NCBI GenBank assembly: GCA_943736015.1
Contig: OX031070.1
Coordinates: 22,465,673-22,529,672, forward strand
Reading direction: 5' to 3'
Length of the DNA stretch: 64,000 bases
DNA from: Tridacna crocea
Taxonomy: Eukaryota; Mollusca; Bivalvia; Cardiida; Cardiidae
The translations under genes were made by a program, and so were the position numbers. Shown one piece after another: positions 179 to 57,100 of the stretch. How positions within the stretch are numbered: position 1 is the stretch's first letter; each line of letters opens with the position of its first letter. A model generated the notes under the pieces. It ran no database searches. It saw nothing but the letters and a program-made list of their open reading frames with translations, and was not told the DNA's origin.

Positions 179-414
179 TTAATTCTTTACCACGCAATCC
201 CTCCTTTTAGCGACTCTGAGACAGAAGCCTTTTGAAAACATTATGGGAAAAGTAGAAAATGCTGGTAACCAATATTTTCTACTTTTCCCACAATGTTTTC
301 TACCCTTCCCAAAACAAATTTTAATGCTCACTCATATTAATTTCGTCGTCTGCAAATGGTTCCAATTTGGTCTACACGGAATGGTCTAAAACTATGTCGT
401 TTGGTAAAGAGTGA
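179..414 (-). mobile_element. PalA element
   Basis: TTAA start, degraded right end. Both palindrome arms share a change: AAAAGTAG on the left, CTACTTTT on the right, where the family has AAAAGGAG/CTCCTTTT. Confidence 0.85.
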
Positions 415-872
415 AAAGAATGGATATCGTTATCTACCTTATTATGTGTTACAGTGGAATCTGCCAATATTCCAGTTGCCAACATTTAGACCAACTGCAA
501 TTTTTCAATATACTTTTCTGTCAGCGACTAGCTCGATAACAGATTGTACTGTAACTAAAATAGTTTGTCTAGATCTCGACTCCAGAATTGTTTACTTTTG
601 GCCAATTGGGTGCCTTTAAATTGTCTTTCTTCCTCTGATACCCACAATATGGACAAGTCTAAAGTTTTGTTGTTTTGTAAAGAATTTATTGTAGTATATA
701 ATGCCAAAATATTCGTGTCAAGCCCCCGTCATATAATAACTTTAAGGTCAAAGGTTATCGGAATAAAGTATCAATGTCAAACAATATCAGTGGTATACTC
801 CGTTTGACACTTCACAAAATATCCATCAAGGTTTGAAGGCTGTATCTTGATATTGTACAAATATGTGACCAG
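415..872. other. Unassigned intergenic DNA
   Basis: No splice-like coding frame, repeat match or hairpin recognised. Short open frames here have no protein-like composition. Confidence 0.5.
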
Positions 873-990
873 TTTAATCATCAGGCTGCTAACCGCGACT
901 CAGTGACCTTTGGCGGATAGTGTAGGCTCAAGATCAGACTGCTCAGAAGTCTGATCTTGAATCTACACTGTCCTATGAGAAGATACCCCC
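873..990 (-). mobile_element. PalB element, partial
   Basis: GGCTGCTAACCGCGACTCAG terminus, then the core AAGATCAGACTGCTCAGAAG and its mirror TCTGATCTTGAATCTACAC. The far end is lost in pyrimidine-rich DNA (CTCCTCCT and a poly-C run near 1020-1032). Confidence 0.75.
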
Positions 991-1112
991 TTCCTCCTCC
1001 TCCTCCTCCTCCTCGTCACCCCCCCCCCCCCCATAAAAAAAAACGATTGAACATTTGGGGATTTTTTTCATCGGCTGGAAAGTTTCTTTTTATTTATTCA
1101 GCTGGTTATGGA

Positions 1113-1342
1113 TTAACCCATTACTCCATAGATACTCATTTCTACACATTGCTTGTAGGAGCCTTTGGAAAACATTGTGGCAAAAGGTGAAATTGCTCGC
1201 GACGAGCAATTTTACCTTTTGTCAAAATGTTTTCTATGCTATCAAAAGGTGTCATTTACACATAAAAAAACGACTTCATCCTTGCTGTTATTTAGGGTCA
1301 ATTAGAGATGCCATATGAATGCCTTATGGGGTAAAGGGTTAA
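1113..1342 (-). mobile_element. PalF element
   Basis: TTAACCCATTACTCCATAG to GGGTAAAGGGTTAA, 230 bp with TTAA ends. Central palindrome around GAAATTGCTCGCGACGAGC with AACATTGTGGCAAAAGG arms. Same termini as PalA but a different internal sequence. Confidence 0.85.
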
Positions 1343-1409
1343 ATAGAGCTTGATAACAAAGAAGAATCCAGTCTTTCTTTAACTCTTCAAAGACATGGGC
1401 GACAACTAC

Positions 1410-1580
1410 GGGCTTTTGAAAACGGCAAGGATACAAGATCAGACTGCACAGAACTTACGCTGATCTTGATCTGTATCTTTCTGTCTATCTGTCTCTGTCT
1501 CTGCCTCTCTGTGTCTTCCTCTCTGTCTCTGTATCTGTCTCTGTGTTTTGTCTCTCTTTGTCTGCGTCTCTATCTCTCAA
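1410..1580. repeat. PalB core fragment followed by a TCTG/TCTC microsatellite
   Basis: AAGATCAGACTGCACAGAAC near 1437 and its degenerate mirror, then about 90 bp of TGTCTCTG-type simple repeat (1480-1570). Confidence 0.65.
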
Positions 1581-1647
1581 CTGACGTTTTTAACAATGAT
1601 CGTTGCTGATGGACACGTGTCTTACACAAAGACCTGGGCAAAAACAT

Positions 1648-1908
1648 AAACCTTGCTCCAGTAAAAAGGGCTTAATACATCTCCGTGATCCTTGATACCA
1701 AGCAAGACACCACATAAATTAGGAATACATGGTATCCAATTAGTTTGACAGTTGATTGGATACGGAGGTAGAACCGTCTTTGGACAAGCATAACATTTAC
1801 AAATAGCAAAAAGTATCGACTCATTTCAGCCTGCGCGGAATGCGCAGGATGACATGAGTCGGTACTTTTTGCAGATGCATTAAGCACCCTTTTCACAGAG
1901 CATGGTTG
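1648..1908 (-). mobile_element. PalE element, nearly complete
   Basis: Left end CTTGCTCCAGTAAAAAGGGC with TTAATACAT and right end ATGCATTAAGCACCCTTTTC with ACAGAGCATGG are inverted repeats. Inner hairpin is TCAGCCTGCGCGGAATGCGC. About 260 bp, no coding sequence. Confidence 0.75.
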
Positions 1909-2294
1909 ATATGTTTATGACAATGAAAGGGTCATTTTTTAAAGGGTTGCGTGTGGTGATCTAGTTATTGCCAAATTTATAGACTGCATTAGATATACGA
2001 TTTGATATATCTGTATTTCAAAATAGAGGGATAATAATATAGATGTCTTCACATTTCAAACCTATAATACCACGATTTGAATTCAGGTCTCGTCCCAAGT
2101 TTTTGTAGACCTATATTTGAATATATACCTAAACTATTTATAACACAATCTCATCTTCTTTTTATACATATGGGCCATGCTCTGCGGCAAATGGGGGCTT
2201 AATCCACTCAGCGTCATAGGCAGAACTGGATTAATTTTGTATATTGCACACGTACTAGCTTAGGAAAGAAATCACCCAAAATATTTTATTTACG
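1909..2294. other. Unassigned intergenic DNA with a PalE end fragment
   Basis: GCCATGCTCTGCGGCAAATG near 2172 followed by GGGGCTTAATCCA is a solitary PalE terminus. Nothing else recognised. Confidence 0.5.
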
Positions 2295-2523
2295 TTAATT
2301 CTTTACCAAACGACAAAATTTTAGACTGGTCCAAATTGAAAGCACTTGCAAATGGCAAAATAAACATAACTCAAAAATTGAAATTTATTTCTAGTAGGGT
2401 AGAAAACACTGTACAAAAAGGAGAAAATGCTGGTTACCAGCATTTTCTCCTTTCCCCACAATGTTTTCAAAAGCCTTCTTTCTCAGGGTCGTAAAAACTA
2501 GGGATTGTTTGATAAAGGGTTAA
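2295..2523 (+). mobile_element. PalA element
   Basis: Complete, TTAA at both ends (2295-2298, 2520-2523), full palindrome with slightly imperfect outer arms (ACTGTACAAAAAGG left, CCTTTCCCCACAATG right). Confidence 0.9.
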
Positions 2524-3544
2524 ATCGGGAGAAAGACAGTGCTGTTTTCGGTATTATACGAACTCTCTTGCATACGGGTCCTTTCTGTCTGCTAGCAAAG
2601 GCATTCGAAGGTCCGTTGGTACATTAAGGAAAACTGACAATTTCATTGGTAGATCATTGAACGCCGTTACTATAGATAGCATATGCTGGATCCATTCTAT
2701 ATCATTTGTATACGCTAGACAGCCGATGTACAAGGATGCTATTTTTAGTAACGGTTTTGGATGATCAAGTACTAATGGACTTTCAGAAATTTATCGTACG
2801 AAATACAACGTTACTCCAAGAAAACTGGTGTTTTTGATAACACTATAGATCCTAGCTATGCTAGGGGTGCCTGGTCATAAAACAGTTGAATAATTACAGC
2901 ATTTCATCCAGTATACCGAGTATCTTATTTTCGTCGCGGTAACAAATTTTGTTGACGGTTGCACTTCCTTTTGAACACAAAAAACAATCGGAGGAAACAA
3001 TCTGAAGATTTAAAATCTGGACACTAAGGTGTCACTTCAGATATCTATTTCATGAGAGGCGTGTATGTTCTATAAGCGTATTTTAAACTACATTTTTGTA
3101 CTAAACGTCAAGTTAATCGCTGAAATTGAATATGCATTAATTCTTCCGACTACAAATAAACTAATTAAACTTGACCTAGACATACCAATTCAACCCATCT
3201 CGAAACAAATAAAATTGAACATTATCCCACAGCAGTAGGCAATGTCTAAAAATGTTTTTGGAATATAATCTACAAACCTTGAACCCTATTCTTCCAATGT
3301 TCTATATTTATCATTTTAACCCTTTACCAAACAAAGACGATTTCTAACAACCCTCATGCTTACTTCGGTCGAAATTTCTTGCTATTTGCGTTGTCTGCGC
3401 ATATCATATTCCTCGAAGGTTTGACCTGTCTGTTATGACGCACCACTCTCCCCAATACTGGGGGATCGTAGCAATATGTGCTATAAAGTAGCAATGAAGA
3501 AAATGGCTTTTCTCTAAACTGCTGATCATAGCTAAATGGAACGC
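2524..3544. other. Unassigned intergenic DNA
   Basis: About 1 kb, largely without repeat matches. A PalA left terminus of some 45 bp lies at 3318-3362 (TTAACCCTTTACCAAACAA). No gene seen. Confidence 0.5.
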
Positions 3545-3670
3545 ACCAGGTAGCATTTATCGAGTAAACGTATTGTCGCGTGGAAAAGTAGTCCGGTTCT
3601 GTACCCAGGATGCCCAAGTTAGATAGATGTGTATTTGTAGAATGCCATCTAGTGGGAGATAATGTGCCAT
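3545..3670 (+). repeat. Dispersed repeat, copy 1 of 2 (partner at 34737-34880, minus strand)
   Basis: CACCAGGTAGCATTTATCGA, then TCTGTACCCAGGATG and GTATTTGTAGAATGCCATCT. The same landmarks in the same order occur in reverse complement at 34737-34880. Family not recognised. Confidence 0.7.
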
Positions 3671-3741
3671 TGGTCATATTCCTGCATATCTGAGAACCAG
3701 TCTACTCCACAATTAAGTCCTATTATTTGCTTTAAGTACCT

Positions 3742-3930
3742 TAAGGGGGCTCTTTGTTGCTCAGTCGTAAAGTGTAATACTCATCAACTGGAGGCTGATG
3801 ATTCGAACCTCACTGGAAACAATTTGTAATCCTTGGACGAAAAACCTAGTACTGGTGAGATCCAAACCCAAAATGAACACGGGAACTGTCGCCGTTATAT
3901 TACTGAAATAGTGTTGAAAGCCACGTACCT
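3742..3930 (+). mobile_element. tRNA-derived SINE
   Basis: tRNA-like head with an A-box-like TTGCTCAGTCGTAAAG and B-box-like GATTCGAACCT, followed by a tail region GCCGTTATATTACTGAAAT and GTGTTGAAAGCC that resembles the 3' end of the SINE at 19352-19680. Non-coding; mobilised by a LINE in trans in other animals. Confidence 0.7.
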
Positions 3931-4261
3931 ACATGTATATATTACCTCTCAATGAAGTAATCAATTCAATACCTGCAAATGCACACGACGTCGACGTGGC
4001 CGTTTCCCTTTTTTTTAATAGGGCTTCTTTCTTGTGGAGCGAAATCTTAGAACAAAACGTCTCTACAATAAGATTAATTACGTAACAGAAGAAATACAAA
4101 ACTGGCTACTTGATTGACAACTAATGCGTAAATTTCGTGTGCGAATGCATAATGACCGTCGGTATGCCCCTAATTTGTAATTTAAAACTCTTTTTTGTTC
4201 GTCCGCTTCACTATTGTCTATTTTTTTCCAGAACAGAACAAAAGTTTATTCACCCTGTCTA

Positions 4262-4362
4262 CGCCATAGGCGAAAAAGGGATATTTTTGCAGACAGCACA
4301 GATCCAAGATCAGACTGCACAAAACGTGCAGTCTGATCTTAGATCTATGCCGTCCTCTTGTT
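4262..4362 (+). mobile_element. PalB element, partial
   Basis: AAGATCAGACTGCACAAAAC facing GTGCAGTCTGATCTTAGATC, a near-perfect hairpin, with decayed flanks. DNA between 3931 and 4261 shows no feature. Confidence 0.75.
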
Positions 4363-4589
4363 TAGCCAAGCCTGTAGGCTACCAATACAATAGTATTTGT
4401 AATGACTAATTAAGTGATATCATATAGCAAACATTAATAAAAGAAAAATAAATGACAAAAAAACTATAAATAAGATGAAGGAGCAGGGAGCGTGTAATAG
4501 GAGCAACAGCAGCAGTGGAAAAAAATGAGAATTGAATGGACAACAGGAATAGTAGTACATGTATAAGGAGCAGAAAATAGAAGATCCAG

Positions 4590-4700
4590 GGCAGCAGCAG
4601 CACCAGAAGTGGGACAAGGAGCGGCAGCAGGAGCATAAGCGAAAAAGGAGGAATAGGAGAATGATCTGGAGGTGGAAAGGTGGAGGAGGAAGAGGAGGAT
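4590..4700 (+). repeat. GGA/GCA-rich low-complexity lead-in to the minisatellite
   Basis: Irregular AGGAGCAGCAG and GGTGGAGGAGGAAGAGG runs without the 37-bp period. DNA from 4363 to 4589 is otherwise featureless. Confidence 0.65.
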
Positions 4701-6565
4701 GAGGTCAAAAGGGGAAATACACACTACGAGAGGAGGAGGAGGAGGAGGTCGAACAGGAGATAGACAGTAAGAAAAGAGGAGGAGGTCGAACAGGAGATAG
4801 ACAGTAAGGCAAGAGGAGGAGGTCGAACAAGAGATGGACAGAAAGAAAGGAGGGGGAGGTCGAACGAGAGATAAACAGTAAGAGAAGAGGAGGAGGTCGA
4901 ACAGGACATAGACAGTAAGAGAGGAGGGGGAGGTCGAACAGGAGATAGACAGTAAGAGACGAGGAGGAAGTCGAACGGGAGATAGACAGAAAGAGAAGGA
5001 GAGGAGGTCGAACAGGAGATGGACAGTAAGAGAAGAGAGGGAGGTCGAGCAGGAGATAGACAGTAAGAGAAGAGGAGGAGGTGGAACAGAAGATAGACAG
5101 TAGGAGAGGAGGGGAAGGTCGAACAGGAGATAGACAGTAAGAGAGGAGGAGGGGGTCGAACATGAGATAGACACTAAGAGAGGAGGGGGCGGTCGCATAG
5201 AAGATAGACAATAAGAGAAGAGGAGGAGGTCAAACAGGAGATGGACAGTAAGAGAGGAGGGTGAGGTTGAACAGGAGATAGACAGTAAGAGAAGAGGAAG
5301 AGGTCAAACAGGAGATAGACAGTAAGAGAAGAGGAGGAGGGGGTAGAACAGGAAGTAGACAGTAAGAGAGAAGGATGTCGAACAGGAGACTGACAGTAAG
5401 AGAGGGGGAGGAGGTCGAACAGGAGATACACAATAAGAGAGGAGGGGGGAGATCAAACAGAGGAAAGACAGAAAGAGAGGAGGAGGAAGTCGAACAGGAG
5501 ATAGCAATTAAAGGGAAGGAGGAGAACAGAAGATAGACAGTAAGAAAGGGGGAAGAGGTCGAACAGGAGATGGACAGTAAGAGAGGAGGAGATCGAACAG
5601 GAGATGGACAGTAAGAGAAGAGGAGGTCGAACAGGAGATGGACAGTGAGAGAAGAGAAGGAGGTCGAACAGGAGATGGACAGTAAGAGAGGAGGAGGTCG
5701 AACAGGAGATGGACGGTAAGAGAAGAGGAGATCGAACAGGAGATGGACAGTAAGAGAGGAGGAGGAGGTCAAACAGGAGATAGACAGTAAGAGAGGAGGA
5801 GGGGGTCAAACAGGAGACAGACGGTAAGAGAGGAGGAAGAGGTCAAACAGGAGATAGACGGTAAGAGAGGAGGAGGAGGTCAAACATGCGATGGACAGTA
5901 AGAGAGGAGGAGGTCGAACAGGAGATAGACAGTAAGAGAAGAGGAGGAGGTCGAACAGGAGATGGACAGTAAGAGAAGAGGAGGAGGTCGAACAGGAGAT
6001 GGACAGTATGAGAAGAGGGGGAGGTCAAACAGGAGAAAGACAGTAAGAGAGGAAGAGGAGGTCAAACAGGAGATAGACAGTAAGAGAGGAGGAGGAGGTC
6101 AAACAGGAGATAGACGGTAAGAGAGGAGGAGGAGGTCAAACAGGAAATAGACAGTAAGAGAAGAGGAGGTCAAACAGGAGATAGACAGTAAGAGAGGAGG
6201 AGGAGATCAAACAGGAGATAGACAGTAAGAGAGGAGGAGGAGGTCAAACAGAAGATAGACGGTAAGAGAGGAGGAGGAGGTCAAACAGGAAATAGACAGT
6301 AAGAGAAGAGGAGGTCAAACAGGAGATAGACAGTAAGAGAGGAGGAGGAGGTCAAATAGGAGATAGACAGTAAGAGAGGAGGAGGAGGTCGACCAGAAGA
6401 TAGACAGTAAGAGAGGAAGAGGAGGTCAAACAGGAGATAGACAGTAAGAGAACAGAAGGCGGTCAAACAGGAGATAGACAGTGAGAGAGAAGGAGGAGGT
6501 CGAACAGAAGATAGACAGTAAGAGAGGAAGAGGAGGTCGAACAGAAGACAGTTAGAGAGGAGAAG
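4701..6565 (+). repeat. 37-bp purine-rich minisatellite, about 50 units
   Basis: Unit GGAGGTCGAACAGGAGATAG with ACAGTAAGAGARGAGGA. GTCGAA starts at 4748, 4785, 4822 and 4859, giving exactly 37 bp; some later units are 34 bp. The plus strand is almost free of C. Units show sub-types (GTCGAA versus GTCAAA, GATAG versus GATGG) that cluster, GTCAAA being commoner after 5760. On the minus strand all three frames stay open for long stretches because the unit has no stop and is not a multiple of three; the translations (SISCSTSSSSLTVYLLFDL) are not considered real proteins. Confidence 0.92.
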
Positions 6566-9379: not shown

Positions 9380-9535
9380 CTGTTATAGGTTGCTAAGGGC
9401 GACTAAAGGACCTTTTGCGGACAGTGTAGATCAAGGTCAGACTGCACAGAACGTGCAGTCTGACCTTGGATCTACACTCTCCGGTATGGAATACTATTCC
9501 CCCAAAACCTATTTGAAACAGGAGAATTTAGGTTT
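9380..9535 (-). mobile_element. PalB element
   Basis: GTTGCTAAGGGCGACTAAAG end and an extended hairpin. Both arms carry the same variant, CAAGGTCAGACTGCAC on the left and GTGCAGTCTGACCTTG on the right, where the family has GATCAG/CTGATC. Confidence 0.85.
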
Positions 9536-9563: not shown

Positions 9564-9793
9564 TTTATCCCTTTACCACACAATGACGACTTTTGACAAC
9601 CTTGAGGTAGAAGCATTTTGAAAATATTGTGGAAAAAGAAGAAAATGCTGGTGACCAGCATTTTCTCCTTTTCCACAATATTTTCAACCCTTCCTAAATC
9701 AAATTTCAATTTTTCGGTCACATTGATTTTGTCGTCTGCAAATGCTATCAATTTGTACCACTCTATCAATTTGTCGTTTGGTAAAGAGTTATT
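9564..9793 (-). mobile_element. PalA element with matched arm variants
   Basis: Arms read GAAAATATTGTGGAAAA and its exact mirror TTTTCCACAATATTTTC; both differ from the family consensus AACATTGTGGGAAAA by the same substitution and the same one-base loss. Confidence 0.85.
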
Positions 9794-14758: not shown

Positions 14759-14984
14759 TTAACCCTTTACCCCACAAGGCATTTCTACAGTATCTCAAAT
14801 TGACCCTAGATAACAGCAAGGATGAAGCCGTTTCTTATGTGTATATGACACCTTTTGATAGCATAGAAAACATTGTGACAAAAGGTGAAATTGCTCGTCA
14901 CGAGCAATTTCACCTTTTACCACAATGTTTTCAAAAGGCTACAAGCCATGCGTAGAAATGAGTATCTATGGAGTAAAGGGTCAA
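14759..14984 (+). mobile_element. PalF element
   Basis: TTAACCCTTTACCCCACAAG to GGAGTAAAGGGT; palindrome GAAATTGCTCGTCACGAGC with ACATTGTGACAAAAGG arms. TTAA lost at the right end. Confidence 0.85.
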
Positions 14985-15925: not shown

Positions 15926-16174
15926 CTTTTCTCTATATCCAGGGGTAGAATTGTCTATAATTTACTATTGAGCTACATGTATTTTATGAACAGTATCTCA
16001 CTGTTTATAAACGTCTTATGGATGTCTATTTTCGCCAGTATTCCAGACTTGTTCTCAGCAAAGTTTTCCTTCCTAGCTACCAACATTTCCACCAAACGAA
16101 CACCACGGAAGAAGAAATTAGCGGATTACTGAATGACATACAAACGGAAAAATATAAATAAATGATATCGCACA

Positions 16175-16253
16175 TCGTCGGTTTACTTCAAAAACCTCGT
16201 AACTACAGCTTGTTTAAAGCTGTAGTTACGAGGTTTTTGAAGTTAAACGACGA
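16175..16253. mobile_element. PalD full-length hairpin, copy 1 of 3
   Basis: TCGTCGGTTTACTTCAAAAA, CCTCGTAACTACAGCTT, loop GTTT, then the mirror to CGACGA. Arms of about 37 nt pair with hardly a mismatch. Confidence 0.9.
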
Positions 16254-16548
16254 CATGCTCTTGGTTTTGAAGGAAAGAAAGCAGCCACTACTGGTTGAGA
16301 AGAATATTGTGCGAATCGATGCCTGTTAAAGATGTCCGTTTACTCATTCTAAGCCAAAATATAACCAATTTCGTCGATATTTTATCCAGCTATAGTCATT
16401 GCTGTGGCTTCATGACAAATATTACACCTGGTAGTTGCCCGATTACATGGAGTACGACACAGATAGAATTTGTACGTTGGACCTGGCTTTTTTCCACTCG
16501 TTCGATCAAGGATAAAGCGTGATGCTTGTCACGTGTACGATCTTGGCC

Positions 16549-16955: not shown

Positions 16956-17184
16956 TTAACTCTTTACCAAACCACAAAATTTTAGACTGGTTCAAATTAT
17001 AAGCACTTGCAGATGACATATTAAACGTAAATCAAAAATTGAAATTTGTTTCCAGCGGGGTAGAAAACATTGTGAGTAAAGAAGAAAATGCTGGGTACCA
17101 GCATTTTCTTCTTTTCCCACAATGTTTTCTAAATGCTACTATCTCAGGGTCGTACAAACCAGGGATTGTTTGGGAAAGGATTAA
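16956..17184 (+). mobile_element. PalA element with matched arm variants
   Basis: Complete, TTAA ends. The arms share AAAGAAGAAAATG / CATTTTCTTCTTT where the family has GGAG/CTCC. Confidence 0.9.
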
Positions 17185-26313: not shown

Positions 26314-26789
26314 ATTTGGTACATGTAAACAAATAAGTAAAAATGCCTTCGTGTAGAAACCTCTTATGCTTTACACGACGGTCATTTGACCTTCTTCCAG
26401 CGTTTTCAAGTCGCATGATCTTGTCCAGCGGATTTCTTTCTAGATTTTTTTGACGAAATTCTTCTTATTATCTTCTGCTTAGATTGAATTGCTTAACGAA
26501 AAATTACAATTATTTGACAGGTCATTTTGCAGCCATGGCAAATTAATATAACAAATTCTTTCTCAAATTCGCCATATAACACGTCTGTTTCCTGATTCCG
26601 TTTTATGACTGCTTTATTCACAAAACCACGACGAGATAGACTGTGTATCAGAACAACGTCGCGAGAAAAACGAATTTAGGCAGCAAATTCTGTAGCAGTC
26701 TGTTTTTTAAACTCACCAGCATGACCTCCACCAAATATCATCAGCTGATTTGCCAATTCATTCAGCTTTTTGTGTAGGTCACTGGACAC
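26314..26789. other. Unassigned intergenic DNA
   Basis: Nothing recognised. Confidence 0.5.
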
Positions 26790-26870
26790 ATCGTCGGTTT
26801 ACTTAAAAAACCTCGTAACTACAGCTTGTTTCAAGCTGTAGTTACGAGGTTTTTGAAGTAAACCGACGAT
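26790..26870. mobile_element. PalD full-length hairpin, copy 2 of 3
   Basis: ATCGTCGGTTTACTTAAAAA to the mirror AAGTAAACCGACGAT; loop TTTC. Arms of about 38 nt with one mismatch. Confidence 0.9.
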
Positions 26871-27159
26871 ATATCAAATAGAAACAAACAGCAAAGCTGT
26901 AAGTTTGCCAATAAAAGTCTAGCATTGGATCCAAGACGGTGAATTTCGCTTTATTTTGTAGCCAAAAAAAGTGAACACGATATGCACTCTCATTTTGCCT
27001 GGTACAGCGTTGACTGAAGAAAAAGAACCTGAAGAAATTGTAGAAAGATGCACGACAATGTTGTTCAACGAAGACGTGCGACTAATACCGGTCGTTCACG
27101 CCAATTCATCTTTAGATTGATGTGCGTTGAAAGTGAGCCAAAAATTTACTTATAAACTT

Positions 27160-30629: not shown

Positions 30630-30847
30630 TTAACTCAAACGTCTAAATTTTAGTCCAAATTCAAAGGGCTAGCAGATGATAAAGTAAAAGTAACTCAAAA
30701 ATGGATTTTTTTCCCTAGCTGGGTAGAAAACATTGTGGGAAAAGGAGAAAATGCTGGTAACCAGCATTTTCTCCTTTTCCCACAATGTTTTCATAAGGCT
30801 TCTATCTGCGGGTCGTAAAAACCGAGGATTGTTAGGTTAAGGGTTAC
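30630..30847 (+). mobile_element. PalA element
   Basis: Left end partly deleted (TTAACTCAAACGTCT); palindrome perfect over GTGGGAAAAGGAGAAAATGC and its mirror. Confidence 0.88.
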
Positions 30848-30874: not shown

Positions 30875-31103
30875 TTAACCCTTTCCCAAACAATCCCTGG
30901 TTGTTACGGGTCTTGAATAGTAGTCCTTTGAAAACATTGTGGGAAAAGGAGAAAATGCTGGTAACCAGCATTCTCTCCTTTTCTCACCATGTTTTCTACC
31001 CTATCATAGACAAAAATCATCTTTTCAGCAAGAGTTGAATTGTCGTCTGCAAATGCTTTCAATTTGGTCTAGTACAAAAGTGTGTCGTTTGGGAGAGGTT
31101 TAA
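30875..31103 (-). mobile_element. PalA element
   Basis: Complete; right TTAA 31100-31103 shared with the following PalB copy. Confidence 0.9.
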
Positions 31104-31683: not shown

Positions 31684-32125
31684 TCAACCCTATATACCAA
31701 ACCATCCCGACTTTTAAACTCGACACCAGTAACATCGCACGAAAAGTAGAAGATGCTGGTAAACAGCATTTTCTCCTTTCTTTACAATGCTTTCTAGTCG
31801 TCAAAAAAACAAATTCATCTTTGCAGACACTGTTAACACTTTACCAAACGAAAAAAATTTTAGACTTTTCCAAATTCAAAGCATTTGCAGACGACAAAAT
31901 AAACGTGACTCAAATGTTGAAACTTGACAGTAGAAGAATAGAAAACATTGTGGGAAAAGGAGAAAATGCTTGTAACAAGCATTTTCTCATTTTCCCACAA
32001 TGTTTTCAGAAGGCTTCTATCAAAGGGTCGTGAAAACCATAAATTATTTGGGAAAGAGTTAAATTATCGTCTGCATATGCTTTTAATTCGGCCATGTCTA
32101 AAGATTGTTGCCTGGTAAGGGTTAT
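31684..32125 (-). mobile_element. PalA element split by a second PalA element
   Basis: Left part 31684-31832 runs to CTTTGCAGACACTG; right part 32063-32125 resumes ATTATCGTCTGCATATGC and ends GGTAAGGGTTA. Between them a whole PalA copy sits with TTAA on each side. Confidence 0.85.
31833..32062 (+). mobile_element. PalA element inserted in another PalA
   Basis: Complete, TTAA 31833-31836 and 32059-32062. Palindrome tip GCTTGTAACAAGC: both arms carry the same G-to-T/C-to-A change relative to GCTGGTAACCAGC. Confidence 0.9.
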
Positions 32126-32879: not shown

Positions 32880-33108
32880 TTAACCCATTACCACACAATC
32901 CCTACTTTTGACGCCCCTAAGAAAGAACCTTTTAGAAAACATTATAGGAATAGGAGTAAATGCTGGTAACCAGCATTTTCTCCTATTCCCACAATGTTTT
33001 ATACCATTCACAAAACAAATTTCAAATTTTCAGTCACTTTTATTTTGTCGTCTGTAATTTCTTTTAATTTGGACAAGCCTAAAATTTTGTTGTTTGGTAA
33101 TGGGTTAA
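32880..33108 (-). mobile_element. PalA element with matched arm variants
   Basis: Complete, TTAA ends. Arms share GGAATAGGAG / CTCCTATTCC instead of GGAAAAGGAG / CTCCTTTTCC. Confidence 0.92.
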
Positions 33109-33184: not shown

Positions 33185-33411
33185 TTAACATTACCAAACG
33201 AGAAAATTTTAGACTGGTCCAAAATCAAAGCACTTGCAGACGACAAAATAAAGGTGACTGAAAAATTGAAATTTCCTCTGGGAAAGGTAGAAAACACTGT
33301 GGGAAAAGGAGAAAATGCTGGTTACCAGTATTTTCTCCTTTTCCCACAGTGTTTTCAAAAGGCTTCTTTCTCAGGGGCGTCAAAAGAAGGGATTGTGTGG
33401 TAATGGGTTAA
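33185..33411 (+). mobile_element. PalA element, ACTGTGGG subtype
   Basis: Complete, TTAA ends; the outer arm variant ACACTGTGGG is mirrored as CCCACAGTGT. Confidence 0.92.
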
Positions 33412-36334: not shown

Positions 36335-36587
36335 TTAACCCATTACCACACAATCCCGACTTTTGACGACCCTGAGGTAGAAGCCTGTATGCATTGCTTG
36401 TAAGAGCCTTTGGAAAACATTGTGGCAAAAGGTGAAATTGCTCGTGACGAGCAATTTCACCTTTTCCCACAATGTTTTCTACTTCTCCTGAAACAAATTT
36501 CAATTCTTTAGTCACATTTATATTGTCGTCTGCAAACGCTTTCAATTTGGACCCAGTCTAAAATATTGTCGTTTGGTAAAGAGTTAA
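36335..36587 (-). mobile_element. Hybrid element: PalA ends with a PalF core
   Basis: Starts as PalA (TTAACCCATTACCACACAAT, CCTGAGGTAGAAGCCT), switches to PalF (GCATTGCTTGTAAGAGCC, GTGGCAAAAGGTGAAATTGC, TCGTGACGAGC), then returns to PalA in the right arm (CTTTTCCCACAATG, TTGTCGTCTGCAAACGC). 253 bp, TTAA ends. Confidence 0.88.
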
Positions 36588-38136: not shown

Positions 38137-38364
38137 TTAACCCTTCCCCAAACAAGCCCTGTTTTTTACGTGTCTGCAGTACAAGCCTTTTGAAAACACT
38201 GTGGGAAAAGGAGAAATTGCTCGTAACGAGCAATTTCTCCTTTTCCCACAGTGTTTTCTACCCGTTTGAAGAACTTTTTTCCATTTTTGTCAAATTTAAA
38301 ATTGTCGTCTGCAAACTCTTTCAGTTTGAAAGAGTCTAAAATTTGTTGTTTGGGAAAGGGTTAA
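38137..38364 (-). mobile_element. PalA element, TTGCTCG-loop subtype, upstream of the receptor
   Basis: Complete copy with TTAA at both ends. The palindrome loop reads GAAATTGCTCGTAACGAGC rather than the usual AATGCTGGTAACCAGC. Both arms carry ACTGTGGG/CCCACAGT. It ends 360 bp before the receptor ATG. Confidence 0.85.
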
Positions 38365-38724: not shown

Positions 38725-39786
38725 ATGGATCAGAATTTGTCGTTTTGTGATTCTACAACAGTATTAACCCACGCTGAGCGTGGTGTATCAGGGGTGCCAG
38801 AGGAAACCACGCCGATAGTTTATCCGTGCGGCTATTGTGATATCCATTGCATGTACCACGCTGTTTACTGTGTTTTTACGGTTGGAATCTTTGCCAATGC
38901 CATCGTTTTATTCCGAGTTGCTTTGGACAGGAAGCTGAGGAATGTGACTTTTGTTTCCATAGCAGCTTGTGCCTTTGCCGACATGTGTTTTCTGATCATC
39001 AGTCTTGCTGCATCGTTCGAGGCAGTGATTATGACAACAACGTGTAACGACTCGAGTAAATTGGCCCACACTGCATACAACGTCGTAAAAATCGTTTCCT
39101 GGTTTTCAGCCAATGGTCATGTTGCCTTGTTGGCTGTCGTTCGTTATGTATTTTTGACATTTCCCCTGAGGGCCAGTATCTACCTGTCCACACGAAGGGT
39201 TCTCTTGCTGTCGGGGTTGGTTTGGGCTCTTAGTTTTCTTTTCATCATTATCATGACTGCCGTTAGTTTTATTACTGGACTCGACCGACGACGATCAAAA
39301 TATTTCCAGATTATACTATGGACGACAATCTACCTATTACCTGTAATTGTGACTGCCACGCTTCATGTTGTCAAGATCTACAAATTGAAGCATATGAACT
39401 ATACTGTGACAAATGTACAAACGAGGCCTCGAGTTAAGACGATGTCCAGGATGGTCGCACTGGTCATTGTGTTTGCAACTGCTTTGCCATTGCCGTTCGT
39501 TCTAAACAGATTTCTGCAAAGTATTGACCTCGACATATTTGTATACAGATCTACTACTACAGCCCTTCACGTAGAGTACATTGTTCAAATATTTATTTTC
39601 CTAAATCATAGTATAAACCCAGTGATATACGCATTCGTTTCCGATGCATTCCGCATGAGTTTAAAAAGAATGCTGGGTAGGGACCGAAATGTTATAAATG
39701 ATCGTAACAGCACTGGTGCAACACCAACCGCCTTCTTGTCGGAGATCCAAAGACGGGATGCACTTCTTGACAGATTTGCGGACTAA
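38725..39786 (+). CDS. Rhodopsin-class (class A) G-protein-coupled receptor, orphan, intronless
   Basis: A single open reading frame of 353 codons encodes a seven-helix plasma-membrane receptor. Helices lie near residues 42-65, 73-97, 114-143, 158-183, 193-217, 243-264 and 282-306. Class A landmarks are Asn58 in helix 1, Asp86 in helix 2 (AFADM), Arg140 at the end of helix 3, Trp167 in helix 4, Pro206 in helix 5, Pro255/Pro257 in helix 6 and NPVIY at 298-302, followed by an amphipathic helix 8. Odd points: the usual Asp/Glu before Arg140 is Val (VRY instead of DRY), helix 6 has LPLP instead of CWxP, and the short second extracellular loop has no Cys to pair with Cys107, while the N-terminal segment has four (8, 35, 38, 42). 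Asn4 is a glycosylation site. The start is the first ATG in frame; the frame is open 18 bases further upstream. The ligand is unknown; a peptide receptor is possible but not shown. PalA elements flank it on both sides. Confidence 0.88.
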   Translation: MDQNLSFCDSTTVLTHAERGVSGVPEETTPIVYPCGYCDIHCMYHAVYCVFTVGIFANAIVLFRVALDRKLRNVTFVSIAACAFADMCFLIISLAASFEAVIMTTTCNDSSKLAHTAYNVVKIVSWFSANGHVALLAVVRYVFLTFPLRASIYLSTRRVLLLSGLVWALSFLFIIIMTAVSFITGLDRRRSKYFQIILWTTIYLLPVIVTATLHVVKIYKLKHMNYTVTNVQTRPRVKTMSRMVALVIVFATALPLPFVLNRFLQSIDLDIFVYRSTTTALHVEYIVQIFIFLNHSINPVIYAFVSDAFRMSLKRMLGRDRNVINDRNSTGATPTAFLSEIQRRDALLDRFAD

Positions 39787-39927
39787 GATATGCTAAAAAA
39801 GAGTAATGAAGAGAAAGAATTTCAACCCTTATTGTACTGAATAACTTTACTCAAACTTACAAGCCGGTGGTAAAAATCTGAATAATGCTATTCTAGATTT
39901 ACTTTTTGTATGGAGAACGATATCCCC

Positions 39928-40156
39928 TTAACTCTTTACCACACGACAAAATTTTAGACTGGCCCAAATTGAAAGCATTTGCAGAAGACAAAATAAAAGT
40001 GACGGGAAAATTGAAATTTGTTCTGGGAAAGGTAGAAAACACTGTGGGAAAAGGAGAAAATGCTGGTTACCAGCATTTTCGCCTTTTCCCACAGTGTTTT
40101 CAAAAGGCTTCTTTCTCAGGGGCGTCAAAAGTAGGGATTGTGTGGTAATGGGTTAA
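39928..40156 (+). mobile_element. PalA element, 3' flank of the receptor
   Basis: Complete TTAA-bounded copy with symmetrical ACTGTGGG/CCCACAGT arms. It holds the first AATAAA after the receptor stop (39992-39997, about 206 bp downstream), so it may supply the poly(A) signal. It abuts a PalB copy on its right TTAA. Confidence 0.88.
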
Positions 40157-40259
40157 CGGACAGTGTATATCCAAGATCAGACTGCACGTTCTGTGCAGTC
40201 TGATCTTGGATATACACTGTCCGAAAAAATTCAGTCACACTTAGTGGCCTAAGGGTTAC
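40153..40259 (-). mobile_element. PalB element, truncated, with a perfect long hairpin
   Basis: GGACAGTGTATATCCAAGAT and CAGACTGCAC mirrored exactly by GTGCAGTCTG, ATCTTGGATATACACTGTCC. The GTATATCC/GGATATAC variant is on both arms. Starts at the TTAA of the PalA beside it. Confidence 0.85.
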
Positions 40260-40346
40260 GAAAGAGTTGTCGCTTCAACGGGCGTTTCCTTTTTCTTGAT
40301 GTTTCGGTTCCAGGGTTTTCTCACTCGTTTTTCTTAGAATTTGCTT

Positions 40347-40574
40347 TTAACCCTTTCACTAACGACAAAGTTTAGACTCTTCCAAACTCAAAGAGTTTGC
40401 AGACGACAATTTCAAATTTAATAAAAATGGCAGAAAGTTCTCCGAATGGGTATGAAACACTGTGGGAAAAGGAGAAATTGCTCGTTACGAGCAATTTCTC
40501 CTTTTCCCATAGTGTTTTCAAAAGACTTATACTGCAGACACGTAAAAACAATGGCTTGTTTGGGAAAGGGTTAA
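40347..40574 (+). mobile_element. PalA element, TTGCTCG-loop subtype
   Basis: Complete, TTAA ends; ACACTGTGGGAAAAGG arm, loop GAAATTGCTCGTTACGAGC. Confidence 0.88.
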
Positions 40575-40867
40575 AAGCTGTAGCCAAGACATTGGCGTCG
40601 TTTTTAACATGATTTCTCTATGGTGCTACAGGCCTTTTTCAACACTATTGCAGTTATATCTCAGCGGTCAGTGCACCAATCCTTGCTCCACTGAAAGTTC
40701 TTTCACCAGTGCTTCACACCATATTCTTTTCTAGCCACTGCCTGAGCTATGGAGACAATCATCCGAACCAAGGTAATACTTAGTTGTCAGTTTTGCATTC
40801 TTACTTCATTATGCTAGGACTTATCATATTATATCATTATTTTGTTCATAAAAACTGGTTTCGTTCT

Positions 40868-41096
40868 TTAACTCTTTACCAAACGACAAAATTTTAGACT
40901 GGTCCAAATTGAAAGCACTTGCAGACGACAAAACAAAGGTAACTTAATAATTGAAATGTGTTTCCAGCAGGGTAGAAAACATTGTGGGAAAAGGAGAAAA
41001 TGCTGGTTACCAGCATTTTCTCCTTTTCCGACAATGTTTTCAAAAGGCTTCTATCTCAGGGTCGTAAAAACCAGGGATTGTTTGGGAAATAGTTAA
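40868..41096 (+). mobile_element. PalA element
   Basis: Complete, TTAA ends, palindrome nearly perfect (one mismatch, TTTTCCGAC). Confidence 0.92.
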
Positions 41097-41208
41097 ACAA
41101 CCAGACCCGTTGCTTAGCCAGTAATCATCGGGAATGATGTATCAGTAATAATTATATTGTATTTTGTGTATGGTCATATTGGCATGTTGCATCAACATGG
41201 CGGCATGT

Positions 41209-41438
41209 CTAACCCTGTCCCAAACGACAAAGTTTGTACCAGACCAAACTGAAAGCATTTTGCAGATGACAAATTAACAGTTGCTAAAAAGAAGATTTTT
41301 CTATATGATAAGGTAGCAAACATTGTGGGAAAAGGAGAAAATGCTGGTTACCAGCATTTTCACCTTTTCCCCGCAATGTTTTCAAAAGGCTTTTATTCAT
41401 GACCCGTAAAAACCAGGGATTGTTTGGGAAAGGGTTAA
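41209..41438 (+). mobile_element. PalA element
   Basis: Left end TCTAACCCTGTCCC, right TTAA 41435-41438; palindrome with one mismatch pair. Confidence 0.88.
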
Positions 41439-41473
41439 TTGTTACCTATTCTGCAGCTTTTTGTGTTCAATTT

Positions 41474-41620
41474 CAACTCTTTAGCCTACGATAGAATTTT
41501 GGAGATGTCCGAACTGAAAGCATCTGGAAATAAGATAATGCCAAAATGACGATTTTCTTTGAAAGGATGAAAAGGAAAGATCATGTTCTCCTTGTTTCCT
41601 TTTTGGCTTCGAATTGTTGC
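41474..41620 (+). mobile_element. PalA fragment, old
   Basis: CAACTCTTTAGCCTACGATA, TGTCCGAACTGAAAGCATC, then decay. Confidence 0.6.
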
Positions 41621-50896: not shown

Positions 50897-51125
50897 TTAA
50901 CCCTTTACCCCATAAGGCATTTCTATGGTATCTCTAATTGACCCTAAATAACAGCAAGGATGAAGCTGCTTCTTATGTGTATATGACACCTTCTGATAAC
51001 ATAGAAAACATTGTGGCAAAACATGAAATTGTTCGTCACGAGCAATTTCACCTTTTGCCACAATGTTTTCCAAACGCTCCTACAAGCAATGTGTAGAAAT
51101 GAGTATCTATGGAGTAAAGTGTTAA
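50897..51125 (+). mobile_element. PalF element
   Basis: TTAACCCTTTACCCCATAAG to GAGTAAAGTGTTAA; palindrome tip GAAATTGTTCGTCACGAGC. Confidence 0.9.
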
Positions 51126-51269
51126 AAGTCTCTGAATACTTATCTATCTGTACTTTTTCATAAAGTAAGCAGTGTCATTATCTTACTTAGGTTTATGAAA
51201 AGTTAATAATAAAAAAATCTCTCCACAAGATTTCCAACAGTACACATCTGCAAACAAAGGCCGTATCTT

Positions 51270-52053: not shown

Positions 52054-52129
52054 TTGTGGCAAATACAAAAATTAAGGTGTCTACAGTAAATTTGCTTTGC
52101 ACTGATTAGACAATGTGCTAAACGGAGTA

Positions 52130-52255
52130 CTGGTATTCTAAATCCATTGTTTCTCTTTGAAACCCTTTGTTGCCGGTACTCATTAGAATCGTCTCAAAAA
52201 AAATGATTCTAGTAAGTACCAACAACATAGGATTTAGAGGAGAATAATTGATATT
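52130..52255. repeat. Imperfect inverted repeat, possible small MITE
   Basis: TATTCTAAATCCATTG at 52133 faces CATAGGATTTAGAGGAGAATA at 52228; inside, TTGCCGGTACTCATTAGAAT faces ATTCTAGTAAGTACCAACAA. Confidence 0.65.
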
Positions 52256-52544
52256 TTTCATTTTGAAATCAAATTCACTCCCTCTACATGGAGCTCTGTA
52301 AACATCTAGCAGTGTTTCACTAATGTTAACAGCTTGATGTTTTCTCTGCTGCAATAGAGTTCTGTCCCCTTCCTAAGTCCAGGCTTGTTTTCCGTGATGC
52401 TGTAAAAACAAGATATGCATAATGAACTTATTACTAATATCACTATATTTGGTGGATTGCTATTTTCAAGTTAGTCTGTCAAATTCAGATTACTAAGCCA
52501 CTGACCTGTCTGTACTGTTTGACTTTTCAGTCATCAGCCGCTTA

Positions 52545-52724
52545 AATGACAACAACAAAATAAATGTGACTGAAAAATTGAAATTTTGTTTGAGAAGGGT
52601 AGAAATCATTGTGGGAAAAGGACAAAATGCTGGTTACAAGCATTTTCTCCTTTTTCCCACAATGTTTTCAAAAGTCTTCTTTCTCAAGGTTTTTAAAAGT
52701 TGGGATTGTGTTGTATAAGGTTAA
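52545..52724 (+). mobile_element. PalA element, left end missing
   Basis: GACAACAACAAAATAAATG to TTGTATAAGGTTAA; palindrome good. Confidence 0.85.
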
Positions 52725-52764
52725 CAAATGATACGAAAATTTCAAGCTAACAGTAGTGGCCCAT

Positions 52765-52890
52765 GAGCCATGCTCTGTGAAAAGGGGGCTTAATGCATCA
52801 ATTAACAAGTATCGACCTCGATGAGCCTGCGCAGTCCACGCAGGCAGATCTTGGTCAATACTTTTGCTGTCCAAGCACCATTCTACCTCA
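52765..52890 (+). mobile_element. PalE element, left part
   Basis: GCCATGCTCTGTGAAAAGGG with GGCTTAATGCATC, GTATCGACC, GAGCCTGCGCAGTCCACGC hairpin. Confidence 0.72.
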
Positions 52891-52931
52891 TGGTTAAGTT
52901 GATAGCTTTAAAAAGTGACTATTATGGATTC

Positions 52932-53160
52932 TTAACCCTTCCATAGATACTCATTTTGACATATCAACAACTGACAGCTTTTGAAAACATTTTGGGAAAA
53001 GGAGAAATTGCTCGTAACAAGCGATTTCTCCTTTTCCCTCAATGTTTTCCACTCAATCAGATATTTGTATCCTCATTTGTCCTTATCTTTTTAACATCAT
53101 ATAATAATTTGCTGCTGAAATGGAAGAGCCTCAAATTGGCATATCAGGCAAAAGGGTTAA
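52932..53160 (-). mobile_element. PalA element, TTGCTCG-loop subtype
   Basis: TTAACCCTTCCATAGATACT (a PalF-like end) to GGCAAAAGGGTTAA; arms TTTTGGGAAAAGGAG, loop GAAATTGCTCGTAACAAGC. Mixes PalA arms with a PalF-like terminus. Confidence 0.82.
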
Positions 53161-53526
53161 TCATGTGATGACTGGTTTTGAATCAAATATCACAGTGATG
53201 GATTCAGCAGCCATTTGCTAGAGCGTAGCTATATTATCATTATATTATTCATCCTCCACTTTTGCAAAAAGAGTGATCTCCTTAATCAGGCCTTGATTCA
53301 CTTTCTCACCGTTAAAATTTTTAATAAATGGCAACATTTTGTAATTAAAATTTTATAGGTATCAAATAAAAAGGACAGTGATATTGTAGTCATATTTGGG
53401 GCTTATCATTGCTGCTAACAACCTGAGAAAATCTTTAAAGTCTTGCTTGATGTTCCGTGTCAGAAAAATCAAGTCTTTCAATAGCCTTACATCAAGTACA
53501 AGCCCCAAGAAAGATACTTCAGCATT
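53161..53526. other. Unassigned DNA downstream of trichoplein
   Basis: The missing terminal trichoplein exon would be expected in this neighbourhood or further left; no HPKIAWN-like peptide was found here. Confidence 0.45.
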
Positions 53527-53769
53527 ATATGGTCTGCAACACACGAAAAGTGGCGTTTGGACATTTGCGTAAAGTGTTGTCCCTGCACAGTCTACGGAAG
53601 CTGATCAGAGACAACACATTCCAGTCATGCGTGATTTCCTATTTCACGCAAGCATACTGTAGGACAAAGTTTGATGATGACATAAAGTGCCAGTCTGCTC
53701 AGGCTACTCCGAGACGACAATTTACACAAATGTCCGAAAGCCCCTTTTCACATGTTGTAGACCATATAA
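53527..53769. mobile_element. PalC element, complete
   Basis: ATATGGTCTGCAACACACGA and CATGTTGTAGACCATAT close it; TGCACAGTCTACGGAAGCTG inside is a decayed hairpin, second hairpin also reduced. Lies within 300 bp of the last trichoplein exon found. Confidence 0.82.
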
Positions 53770-54043
53770 TGTACTCTTACTGCTCCATTGACTTCATGTT
53801 GCTGACAAACTGCAGACACACATTCCTATCACTAAACCAAGCGCAATTATTGTTTACCCTTCTCAGATGCCGAGGTTTGGTGTTTTTTTCAATATCCATT
53901 TTTATATACAGTAGATAAATCAGTGAGTACAGTTACCAATAGTGCAATTAAAACAAAGGCTAACTGACCTCAGTAAAGGACCCAAGAGGCCAAAATTCAT
54001 CTCCAAAAACAAAATCTATTAATAGTTTAAACATGTATCTTAC

Positions 54044-54187
54044 TCTTGGTGTAAATCCTCGCAACTTCAATCTCTCTGTCTCCTGTTTAAGAAACTGCTC
54101 ATAGTCTTTTTCTGCCACTTTATCCTCCTCCACCTCTTGCTGTAGTCGTAATTTAGTAATTTCTTCCCTCTCTTTACGAGATGTGAT
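54044..54187 (-). CDS. TCHP: Trichoplein exon (last one found)
   Basis: 144 bp, 48 codons, acceptor TTGTAG, donor GTAAGA. Reads ITSRKEREEITKLRLQQEVE, then EDKVAEKDYEQFLKQETERL and KLRGFTPR. The end aligns with human LQQEAETMAEQGYRPKP. Reading through the donor gives about 21 unrelated residues before a stop, so a further short terminal exon is expected. No match to the HPKIAWN tail was seen downstream to 50 kb. Confidence 0.85.
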
Positions 54188-57100
54188 CTACAAGTAAGTT
54201 TACACAGATTATCATATCAAGTGTTGTATTCACCAACCATTTTAAGTTGATACCTAAGCTTTCAGTCTGAGAGGTGAGTACAAAGCATCTCAACCAATAA
54301 GAAAGCTAGTTGTAGAACTTGGAAATCAGAACCCATCCCCCTCCCTGAGATGCAGAAAAGAGGAGACCATCAAACTCCCTTCAAACTATTTCATTCTGTA
54401 ATCTTTACTTATATATGTTATATGGTTTGCAACACGCAAAAGGGGCATTAGGACATTTGCGTTGTGTCATCTCGGTTCAGCCTGCGCAGTTCACAGAGAC
54501 TTATCTGAAACAACAATTTCAGTTTTTATGTATTTTTCTGTTTTGCGCAAGTCTACTGTAGCAAAAAATCTACTGTAGTCGTAAAATGCCGTCTTGGATT
54601 AGCCTGCACAGACTGCGCAGGCTAATCCAAGACAACATTTTACACAAATTTCCTAAAGCTCCTTTTCATGTAATGCAAGCCATATATGAAAGCATTGTGG
54701 ACGATGTTCTCCTCACTTTCAAAGACATATCACACCATTTCAGCTGCATTTCAATCTCGCCTTCTATCTCAACAAGTCTTAAGTTTTGTCTTCTGGTCCA
54801 GAAATACTTGAAATTGACTCAATGAGCAAAGGCTAATAAGTCTACAGCTAAGTTTCATCTTAACTCTTTACCAAATAACGTAACTTTGGACTAGTCCAAA
54901 TTGAAAGCATTTGCAGACAACGAAATTGATGTGACTCAAAAACTGAAATTGGTTTTGGGAAGGGAAGAAAATGTTGTGGGAAAAGGAGAAAATGCTGGTT
55001 ACCAGTTTTTTCTCCTTTTCCCACAATATTTTAAGAAAGCTTCTTTCTCAGGGTCCTGAAAACCAGGGATTGTTTGGGAAAGGGTTAAAGAAATTTTATC
55101 AGGGTTCAGCAGTTCAGCAGTTAATGATAAGAATGAGATTCCATATCAAACCTGTTCTTTGAGTTCCAGTTTAAGCTTTTCTTTTTCAGCTTCAGCTTTC
55201 TCAAAATCGCATCTGGTGAGCTGATTAGCTATTTCCATTTCTCTGATTAACTCTTCACGATGTTTAATTGACTCTTCCTGGCGCTCCCGAACTTCCTCCA
55301 TTCTATCAATAATCTGTTCATTTCTTGCATCAAGTACCTGTAACAATATAATCATATGTATTTTTAAATTCAGCGTATTAGACAAATGACAGATTTCTTT
55401 CGGTCAATAGGTTTACCCATTAAAAAACAATCTGGATTTTTAACAAATGTTTAAGATGAGGCTTTCGAAAACAACCTGTAAACCAGAGAAAATTCTGGTA
55501 ACTAGAATTTTCCACATTCAAAAAAAAAAAACCTTTAGCTTTAAATAAGACAATTCCAATTTTTTGAGGCAACAATATTTTTCCAACCTTCTGAGACAAA
55601 TACCATTCTTTGAACCAGATTTCATTTTCAACTGCAGATTCCTTAAATTCTGACAAGTCTAAAGTGCTTTGTTTGGTAAAAGGGTAAAACACAAGATATT
55701 TTACCCATTTATCAAACAACACAAAGATTTTGAGACCACCAGGCAAAAACACCTGAAAAATGAAAAAAACTTGTTCAATACTTGCTGCAATGGTGAAAAT
55801 AGGTTTGCTTGGCAGATTTACCAATGTGTTTTATCTCTTAACCCACCAACAAAATTCTGGATTTACAACCATTTGAGTTCCTTGTATATCATATCACACT
55901 CTACCATTCCTCATTAATTGTGAGTATTCATTAGCATGTTTAAACGTAAATAAGTAGTTTGAATAGGTATTTTAAGTTTCACTGTTTAGACTTTGAAGGA
56001 AAAGCTAAATGACTTTTGTAGCTTCAATTCCATTTAAAACTTTCCACATGAACTTAGACTATAAAGGTGCAAAAATCAGACTAAGCTGACTGGTGCAGCT
56101 GAAGTTATCTTCTGCTTTAATTCTGTAAAAAATGACAAAATTCTAGACCTGTCCACATTCAAGGTATTTAAAGCCAACAAGTTGTGTATGGTTTAGGCTA
56201 TGAAATTTCTATCTGAAAGAGTTGAAAACTTTGTAAGAAAAGGAGAAAATTCTGCTTACAAGCATTTTCTTCCTTTCCCTCAATGTTTTCACTGGTCATC
56301 ATCTTCAGGGTCACTAACACTTGGGTTTGTATTGTAATGGGTTCAAAGATTAACTGTATCTATAATGTCATAAAACATCTTATTCCAATGGTGCCAACAG
56401 TTGTCTTGTAGCAGGCTATTAGTGCCAAGTTGGCAATACAATATTTGCTCAGAATGAGCAATTTCTTCCCATCCCAAATATACTTTAGTTGCATTCTTTA
56501 CTTAGCTTTATTTCACACCAAAACATTCATATTTTTCAACATTTTACATGAATGTTTTAACCCTTTACTCCATTGATACTCATTTCTACTCATTGTTTGT
56601 AGGAGCCTTTGGAAAACATTGTGGCAAAAGGTGAAATTGCTCGTGACGAGCAATTTCGCCTTTTGCCACAATGTTTTCTACACCATCAAAAGGTGTCATA
56701 TACATATAAGAAACGGCTTCATCCTTGCTGTTATTTAGGGTAAATCAGAGATACCATAGATATGCCTTTTGGGGTAAAGGGTTATGAATGGTCTACTGCA
56801 AATTTAATCCTGATCAGAATAAAGCTGTATGTACCTCTTTCATCAGCCTTTCCCTGGCTTTCCTTTCTCTTTCCCATTCTGCTTCTCTTTTCTGCCACAT
56901 TCTTGCTGCTTCATCTCTGTAATTCAATTTGATTATGTGATAAATCTTGCGCTTTGAATTATATACCTCTTTTAAGTTGAACAAGAGATGCAGTGTAATA
57001 GTAGAAAATATGGCTTTTCAGAGACATTCATGAACGCTATCTTTTTTTATCTACAAAAAATGACAGTACCACATCACCATGCAACTAACTTGTGGAGTTC

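Follow-up and report, generated by a model that had tools for sequence, protein, structure and literature searches.

The stretch of DNA analysed in this study, referred to as the window, comprises 64,000 nucleotides from the bivalve Tridacna crocea (GenBank assembly GCA_943736015.1, contig OX031070.1, positions 22,465,673 to 22,529,672 of the forward strand) and contains copies of three palindrome families designated PalA, PalB and PalC. The original prediction, made from the sequence alone, was that both arms of individual palindromes carry the same substitutions in these three unrelated families. For PalA, the counts support founder symmetry as the origin of most of the matched changes, the strong symmetric variants being subfamily markers copied from symmetric founders, and they likewise support almost independent mutation of the two arms in copies that have settled.

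A profile search defined PalA as a very abundant, short element of uniform length with 229 columns. The element starts with TTAACCC, followed by a 33-nt arm, one centre base and the matching 33-nt arm, which together form a 67-nt internal palindrome, and it ends with GGGTTAA or GAGTTAA. Terminal inverted repeats were found at both ends (TTAACCCTTTACC at one and GGTAAAGAGTTAA at the other), and the inverted pairs I12 and I13 in the region 39500-41500 also show them. Among 126 full-length copies, 80 have TTAA at both ends and 98 have it at each single end, compared with 10 of 252 control windows; a TTAA target duplication is suggested by these ends. The left end continues after TTAA with CCCTTT or CCCATT, to be compared with the CCYT motif reported in PMC2872659, and the right end is CCCTTT in the groups A2 and A1x and CTCTTT in A1 (these groups are described below). 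By this anatomy PalA appears to be a non-autonomous DNA transposon, namely a piggyBac-like miniature inverted-repeat transposable element (MITE) with TTAA ends, and at 229 bp it would be too short to encode a transposase.

The nearest published kind that we found is the CMITE of Acropora corals, described as a small non-autonomous, piggyBac-related element with CC[C/T]T termini and a duplicated TTAA, in which families differ less in the internal region than in the terminal repeats, and for which a role of that region in transposition was suggested; CMITEs also form tandem arrays (PMC2872659). PalA shares with it the piggyBac-like MITE character, the TTAA, a conserved internal part and the occurrence in tandem arrays. 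However, CMITEs are about 100 bp long and were reported in far lower numbers, and the conserved part of PalA is a palindrome with subfamily changes in both arms, whereas the main text of the CMITE paper contains no term beginning with palindrom, hairpin or symmetr. A literature search with the palindrome letters returned one unrelated paper, and no paper on these palindromes was found, most subscription journals being outside the reach of the searches.

Genome counts were made on the 1.05-Gb assembly of 18 large contigs and are lower bounds for large families. A 35-nt PalA core has 399,154 matches with two or fewer mismatches, and the exact 33-nt arm has 98,648 and 98,122 matches on the two strands. 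PalA-type sequence occupies 23% of the window and 12% of eighteen 10-kb stretches, one from the 5.0-Mb position of every large contig, two of these stretches being tandem arrays that contain a PalA copy. PalA copies spaced at about 1.85 kb (L041:1-10000, contig C11) and about 1.64 kb (L039:1-10000, contig C9) carry the same decayed arm changes, and therefore a single PalA insertion was apparently copied along with a tandem array, on two chromosomes. Apparent one-arm families at left-arm sites 6, 8, 10 and 13 were rejected, being largely the tandem-array copies in L039 and L041.

Matched changes were counted in 228 palindrome-covering PalA copies, of which 64 come from the window, 96 from the eighteen stretches and 68 from the loci L001-L030, the last being fetched by exact arm match and thus biased to young copies. 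Eleven were dropped (ten near-identical copies from the same loci and one more copy of the L041 tandem array), leaving 217. Eight PalA copies had been named by the original prediction as bearing matched letters. All eight carry them, and each also has one to six one-arm changes. By nhmmer and arm comparison, the element at 179..414 (+ strand, palindrome 234-300) has a symmetric 20G>T and three one-arm changes, and the one at 9565..9791 (+, palindrome about 9619-9687) has a symmetric 6C>T together with one-arm 14G>A and 20G>A and a 1-nt deletion; the remainder of the string given as common to both its arms arises from a substitution in one arm combined with a deletion in the other. A symmetric 20G>A accompanied by three changes confined to one arm, among them 33T>G next to the centre, occurs at 16957..17184 (-), a symmetric 31G>T with one one-arm change at 31834..32062 (-), and a symmetric 17A>T with four at 32880..33107 (+). 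The elements at 33189..33411 (-, one one-arm change) and 39928..40156 (-, palindrome 40035-40101) both carry the symmetric 8T>C that marks the group A1c. The last, at 57107..57335 (+), is an old element with A2-like flanks that has symmetric 8T>C, 13G>A and 31G>C and has 26T in one arm only.

Over the 33 site pairs of the 217 copies, we found 168 symmetric pairs, 796 one-arm changes and 50 unequal double changes (53, 263 and 12, respectively, in the 64 copies of the window). Shuffling arms between copies gives an expectation of 37 symmetric pairs when done plainly and 80 when stratified by divergence, so that matched changes beyond chance are borne out for PalA. Five marker sites (8, 14, 21, 26 and 31) hold 117 of the 168 symmetric pairs against 20 (plain) to 60 (stratified) expected. 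At these sites the symmetric state outnumbers the one-arm state in each case, with 22 versus 16 copies for 8C, 16 versus 4 for 14C, 18 versus 5 for 21T, 28 versus 8 for 26T and 25 versus 2 for 31C.

The consensus palindromes of A1, A1c, A2 and A3, built from 135, 10, 7 and 17 copies, are symmetric over all 33 pairs and differ from one another at the five marker sites, each time in both arms. Site 8 marks A1c and A2, and sites 26 and 31 change jointly in A2 and jointly with sites 14 and 21 in A3. Subfamily A2 (8C, 26T and 31C in both arms) is represented in the window at 38137..38364 (+) and 40347..40574 (-). Subfamily A3 (14C, 21T, 26T and 31C in both arms) is found at 1113..1247 (+), where the element matches the A1 model in part, at 14759..14984 (-), at 36335..36587 (+), and as model-matching parts at 50994..51125 (-) and 56557..56691 (+). 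Half-way copies are few. The exact inner 31 nt (sites 19-33) occur in the genome 191,599 times for A1, 10,018 times for A2 and 15,594 times for A3, and only 10 copies combine one A1 arm with one A2 arm; at site 21, 193 copies are intermediate between A2 and A3, a number that in our judgement is about what later point mutation would give.

The consensus grouping made use of symmetric states at sites 8, 26 and 31, so that symmetry there is partly by construction, and it omitted 59 of the 228 copies and rests on few copies for A2, A1c and A3. These points weigh against the reading, and the copies were therefore regrouped by the left flank alone, which assigned 148 of the 217 and left 69 unassigned. 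Among 18 copies with A3 flanks, the A3 base is present in both arms in 16, 17, 17 and 15 copies at sites 14, 21, 26 and 31, respectively. The two arms of copies with A2 flanks agree in type, being both A2 or both A1, in all 14 cases at sites 8 and 31 and in 13 of 14 at site 26. Flanks were also compared among carriers of individual variants in the 185 copies with enough flank, for variants with at least five such carriers and against a divergence-matched control. Carriers have more similar flanks for four of the five testable symmetric variants and for one of 50 one-arm variants; three of the clustering symmetric variants (sites 21, 26 and 31) have carriers in common, and symmetric 14G>C has too few carriers with enough flank to enter the test. 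The large symmetric subfamilies, the scarcity of half-way copies and this clustering agree with amplification of symmetric founders, one of the origins that had been proposed, for the main variants. The matched changes thus define large subfamilies largely, though not wholly.

Founder symmetry does not account for everything, and several observations stand against it as a complete explanation. The other 28 sites still hold 51 symmetric pairs where 17-20 are expected. Most of this excess lies in the outer arm (sites 1-19), with 33 symmetric pairs against 12.5 expected, compared with 7 against 4.8 in the inner arm, marker sites and site 20 being excluded in both. About 30 symmetric pairs are left over in our local PalA sample; in the outer arm, the excess may reflect rare copying between arms, small families, or symmetric founders of greater age. 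Symmetric 20G>A, with 10 carriers, does not cluster by flanks. Furthermore, of 18 A3 copies, 8 have 13G>A in the right arm and none has it in the left, and therefore a one-arm PalA variant did multiply. This change emerged from the left-flank regrouping and was not revealed by the clustering test. Its carriers include window 14759-14984 and 1113-1247, L038:2076-1849, L030:2264-2396 and others, whereas the A3 element at 36335..36587 is without it. If the RNA were the plus strand of the element, 13G>A would leave a possible G-U pair.

What happens to the arms after insertion was followed genome-wide at sites 29 and 32, in copies that had no further change in the inner bases. These counts cover sites 19-33 only; the outer arm, where most of the local symmetric excess lies, is outside them, which also tells against the reading. 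A one-arm change at site 29 was counted in 8,538 copies and a both-arm change in 305, where independence predicts 95. A non-mirror control, with site 29 changed in one arm and site 32 in the other, gave 763 copies against 430 predicted, a factor of 1.77 that we ascribe to unequal copy ages. After this factor 168 both-arm copies are expected at site 29, fewer than observed, and the change is symmetric in 29 of the first 50 matches listed (42.5% expected from the one-arm spectrum, p 0.02); both figures weigh against full independence of the arms. At site 32, one-arm changes number 19,301 and both-arm changes 1,288 (486 by independence, 860 with the factor), and 23 of the first 50 matches listed are symmetric (44% expected, p 0.44). 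Spectra and symmetric fractions at the two sites were taken from the first 100 listed places, or 50 for palindromic patterns. Mirrored copying was rejected as the cause of the surplus at site 32, as symmetric and non-symmetric changes are alike above expectation; clustered mutation is likelier there, the two bases being 4 nt apart. The estimated share of one-arm changes that become mirrored is 1.0% at site 29 (-0.04 to 1.8%) and 0.2% at site 32 (-1.9 to 1.9%). At sites 29 and 32, then, an arm is seldom rewritten from its partner.

The palindromes diverge less than their surroundings, as had been noted from the first. Close pairs of copies have arm and flank distances of 0.027 and 0.031 (four pairs only) or 0.062 and 0.086 (110 pairs); at flank distances of 0.23-0.28 the arms differ by 0.10, and at 0.33-0.44 by 0.12-0.20. 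Six copies, termed A1x and including the window elements at 30875..31102 (+) and 41210..41438 (-), combine an A2-like left flank with an A1 palindrome. Between A1x and A1, 22% of the flank columns differ and the consensus palindromes are identical; between A1x and A2, 23% of the flank columns differ, together with three symmetric changes in the palindrome. The A1 palindrome having remained unchanged over 22% flank divergence, the palindrome would be nearly constant in elements that multiply, and where it changed it would mostly have done so in both arms, although the A1x copies were chosen for their A1 bases at sites 26 and 31, which weakens the comparison. Selection for a matched palindrome appears to be the simplest account of these patterns. 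The constraint towards matched arms is not absolute: the five subfamily sites change in both arms, yet A3 is split at site 13, and PalB, described below, carries a one-arm deletion in most of its copies. Selection for pairing, which had been offered as an explanation, is accordingly plausible for source elements, with these two multiplied one-arm variants against it.

The reading that we prefer, to which we give a probability of roughly two in three, combines symmetric founders, near-independent arms in settled copies and a constraint to matched arms in the elements that act as sources. New PalA copies would be made by a few source elements in which the palindrome is under strong constraint, and this constraint would favour founders with matched arms. 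A change in a source palindrome would then mostly survive when both arms change, the second arm following by an infrequent template switch or hairpin copying, or by a compensating mutation of its own. The constraint itself may lie in hairpin or cruciform formation, or in the binding of one protein to both arms.

The other two families differ from PalA in their behaviour. The PalB palindromes at 9418..9482 (+), with symmetric 19A>G and an inherited one-arm 1-nt deletion, and at 40157..40223 (+), with symmetric 11G>T and both arms of full length, match their earlier description, as does the PalC palindrome at 54581..54643 (+); the coordinates first given for them are those of the element starts. 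In 32 PalB copies we found 15 symmetric pairs (13 when gaps are counted otherwise) against 4.4 expected and a largest shuffle of 11. The 1-nt deletion is present in one arm in 23 of the 32 copies and in both arms in none; an asymmetric PalB founder has therefore multiplied without repair, a further point against matched arms as a general rule. PalC has no symmetric excess, with 10 symmetric pairs against 14.2 expected in 34 palindromes, which are not independent elements since most PalC elements hold two palindromes. The PalC arms quoted in the original prediction, CTTGGATT and AATCCAAG, depart from the consensus of all arms pooled at two positions: at one, a CpG has decayed by C>T in each arm, and the other is site 20, at which both T and C are frequent. 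Matched changes beyond chance thus hold for PalA and PalB and fail for PalC, and one process common to three families is not upheld.

A rival explanation is hairpin-templated correction or template switching, by which a mutation arising in one arm after insertion is regularly copied to the other. The symmetric excess at the 28 non-marker sites, strongest in the outer arm, the weak excess at site 29 and the surplus in PalB are all what such copying would leave, and template switching is reported to homogenise the arms of inverted repeats (PMC8604942, PMC8794818). However, outside the marker sites 674 one-arm changes stand against 51 symmetric ones, a ratio of 13 to 1, the mirrored shares at the two genome-tested sites are very small, and neither the PalB deletion nor the A3 change at site 13 was ever found in both arms. 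We therefore consider regular copying rather unlikely; the proposal that one arm is rewritten from the other fails as a common process in resident copies, and the 51 symmetric pairs leave room for a rarer one. Template switching has been proposed to produce matched changes in stems (Monttinen and Loytynoja 2022, PMC8794818), the question there being, as here, how both sides of a stem change together. Their cases are RNA genes, whereas the very large set of settled PalA stems suggests that mirrored change is rare, and at the level of the sources most changes are mirrored. Quasi-palindrome correction, which is reported to perfect imperfect inverted repeats in microbes and yeast (PMC7202029, PMC3820800), is not seen as a frequent event in resident PalA copies.

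Ectopic gene conversion would instead have breaks at the palindrome repaired from other copies, the block being homogenised across different flanks and sometimes flipped. The conservation of arms over diverged flanks agrees with this, as does the presence of an A1 palindrome in six of the 14 copies whose left flank is A2-like. The centre base points the same way: among 119 well-oriented A1 copies it is A in 97, T in 13, G in 8 and a gap in one, compared with 64 A>T changes among 4,731 at other A/T arm sites, and the centre-T carriers do not cluster by flanks. These carriers include window 30846-30635, L024:2447-2650 and others, the first being an element (30635..30846, -) with perfectly paired arms and a centre that is T, not A, relative to its flanks. 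G, too, is more frequent at the centre than expected, and T does not exceed G significantly when other sites are taken as the reference (p 0.1); the centre may therefore be hypermutable. Three copies (window 17184-16957, L024:2447-2650 and L045:7249-7471) have in common a symmetric 20A with a one-arm 33G in spite of flanks 37-41% apart, and in one of them the arm marker and the centre are both reversed. There are thus hints that PalA palindromes may flip in place or move between elements. Against much movement, none of 17 typed A3-flank copies and none of the 87 typed among 107 A1-flank copies has a foreign palindrome (of the untyped A1-flank copies, 19 are without a recognisable palindrome and one is ambiguous), and only the 10 genome-wide chimeras of A1 and A2 arms were found. 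The concordance of flank and palindrome gives little support to ectopic conversion as the main cause, which we regard as unlikely.

It is quite improbable that each subfamily palindrome was newly made by inverted duplication of one arm at the birth of the subfamily. Such an origin would give symmetry with few half-way copies. On the other hand, A1, A1x and A2 have the same junctions (AGCCTTTT or AGTCTTTT on the left and CTACCCT on the right) and the same palindrome position within the element, and both arms were therefore probably present in the ancestor of all three; A3 clearly has only the left junction in common with them. Chance with hypermutable sites, such as parallel CpG decay, fits part of the PalC example and the absence of an excess in that family, but it is scarcely conceivable at the PalA marker sites, as the PalA symmetric counts exceed every shuffle, including the divergence-stratified one, and the A1 arm by inspection has no CpG.

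Other repeats were also observed in the window. A further short palindrome family with 42-44-nt arms and ACATCGTCGGTTTACTT near the outer end, distinct from PalA, PalB and PalC, occurs at 26785-26875 and 16170-16258. A purine-rich tandem array with a 37-nt unit, about 50 copies and a strong strand skew spans 4736-6562, and a 361-nt unit occurs as two tandem copies at 58501-59225.

It has long been asked how matched changes arise in the two sides of a hairpin, and this genome offers about 400,000 copies of one stem in which to study this. Settled PalA copies provide a near-neutral measure of arm rewriting, and the subfamilies show where the stem may matter. We suggest more tentatively, as a possibility that is still doubtful, that the palindrome is a working part of a runaway MITE, that copies able to pair are favoured as sources, with G-U pairs perhaps counting as pairing, and that the palindrome may flip in place in about one in ten copies. 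The genome would then record compensatory change as a few symmetric shifts at the level of the sources against a background of settled stems, and those stems, in their hundreds of thousands, would give a neutral rate of mirrored change of about 1% or less at the two sites counted. If the constraint on sources is real, the internal palindrome, and not only the terminal repeats, would influence which MITE copies multiply.

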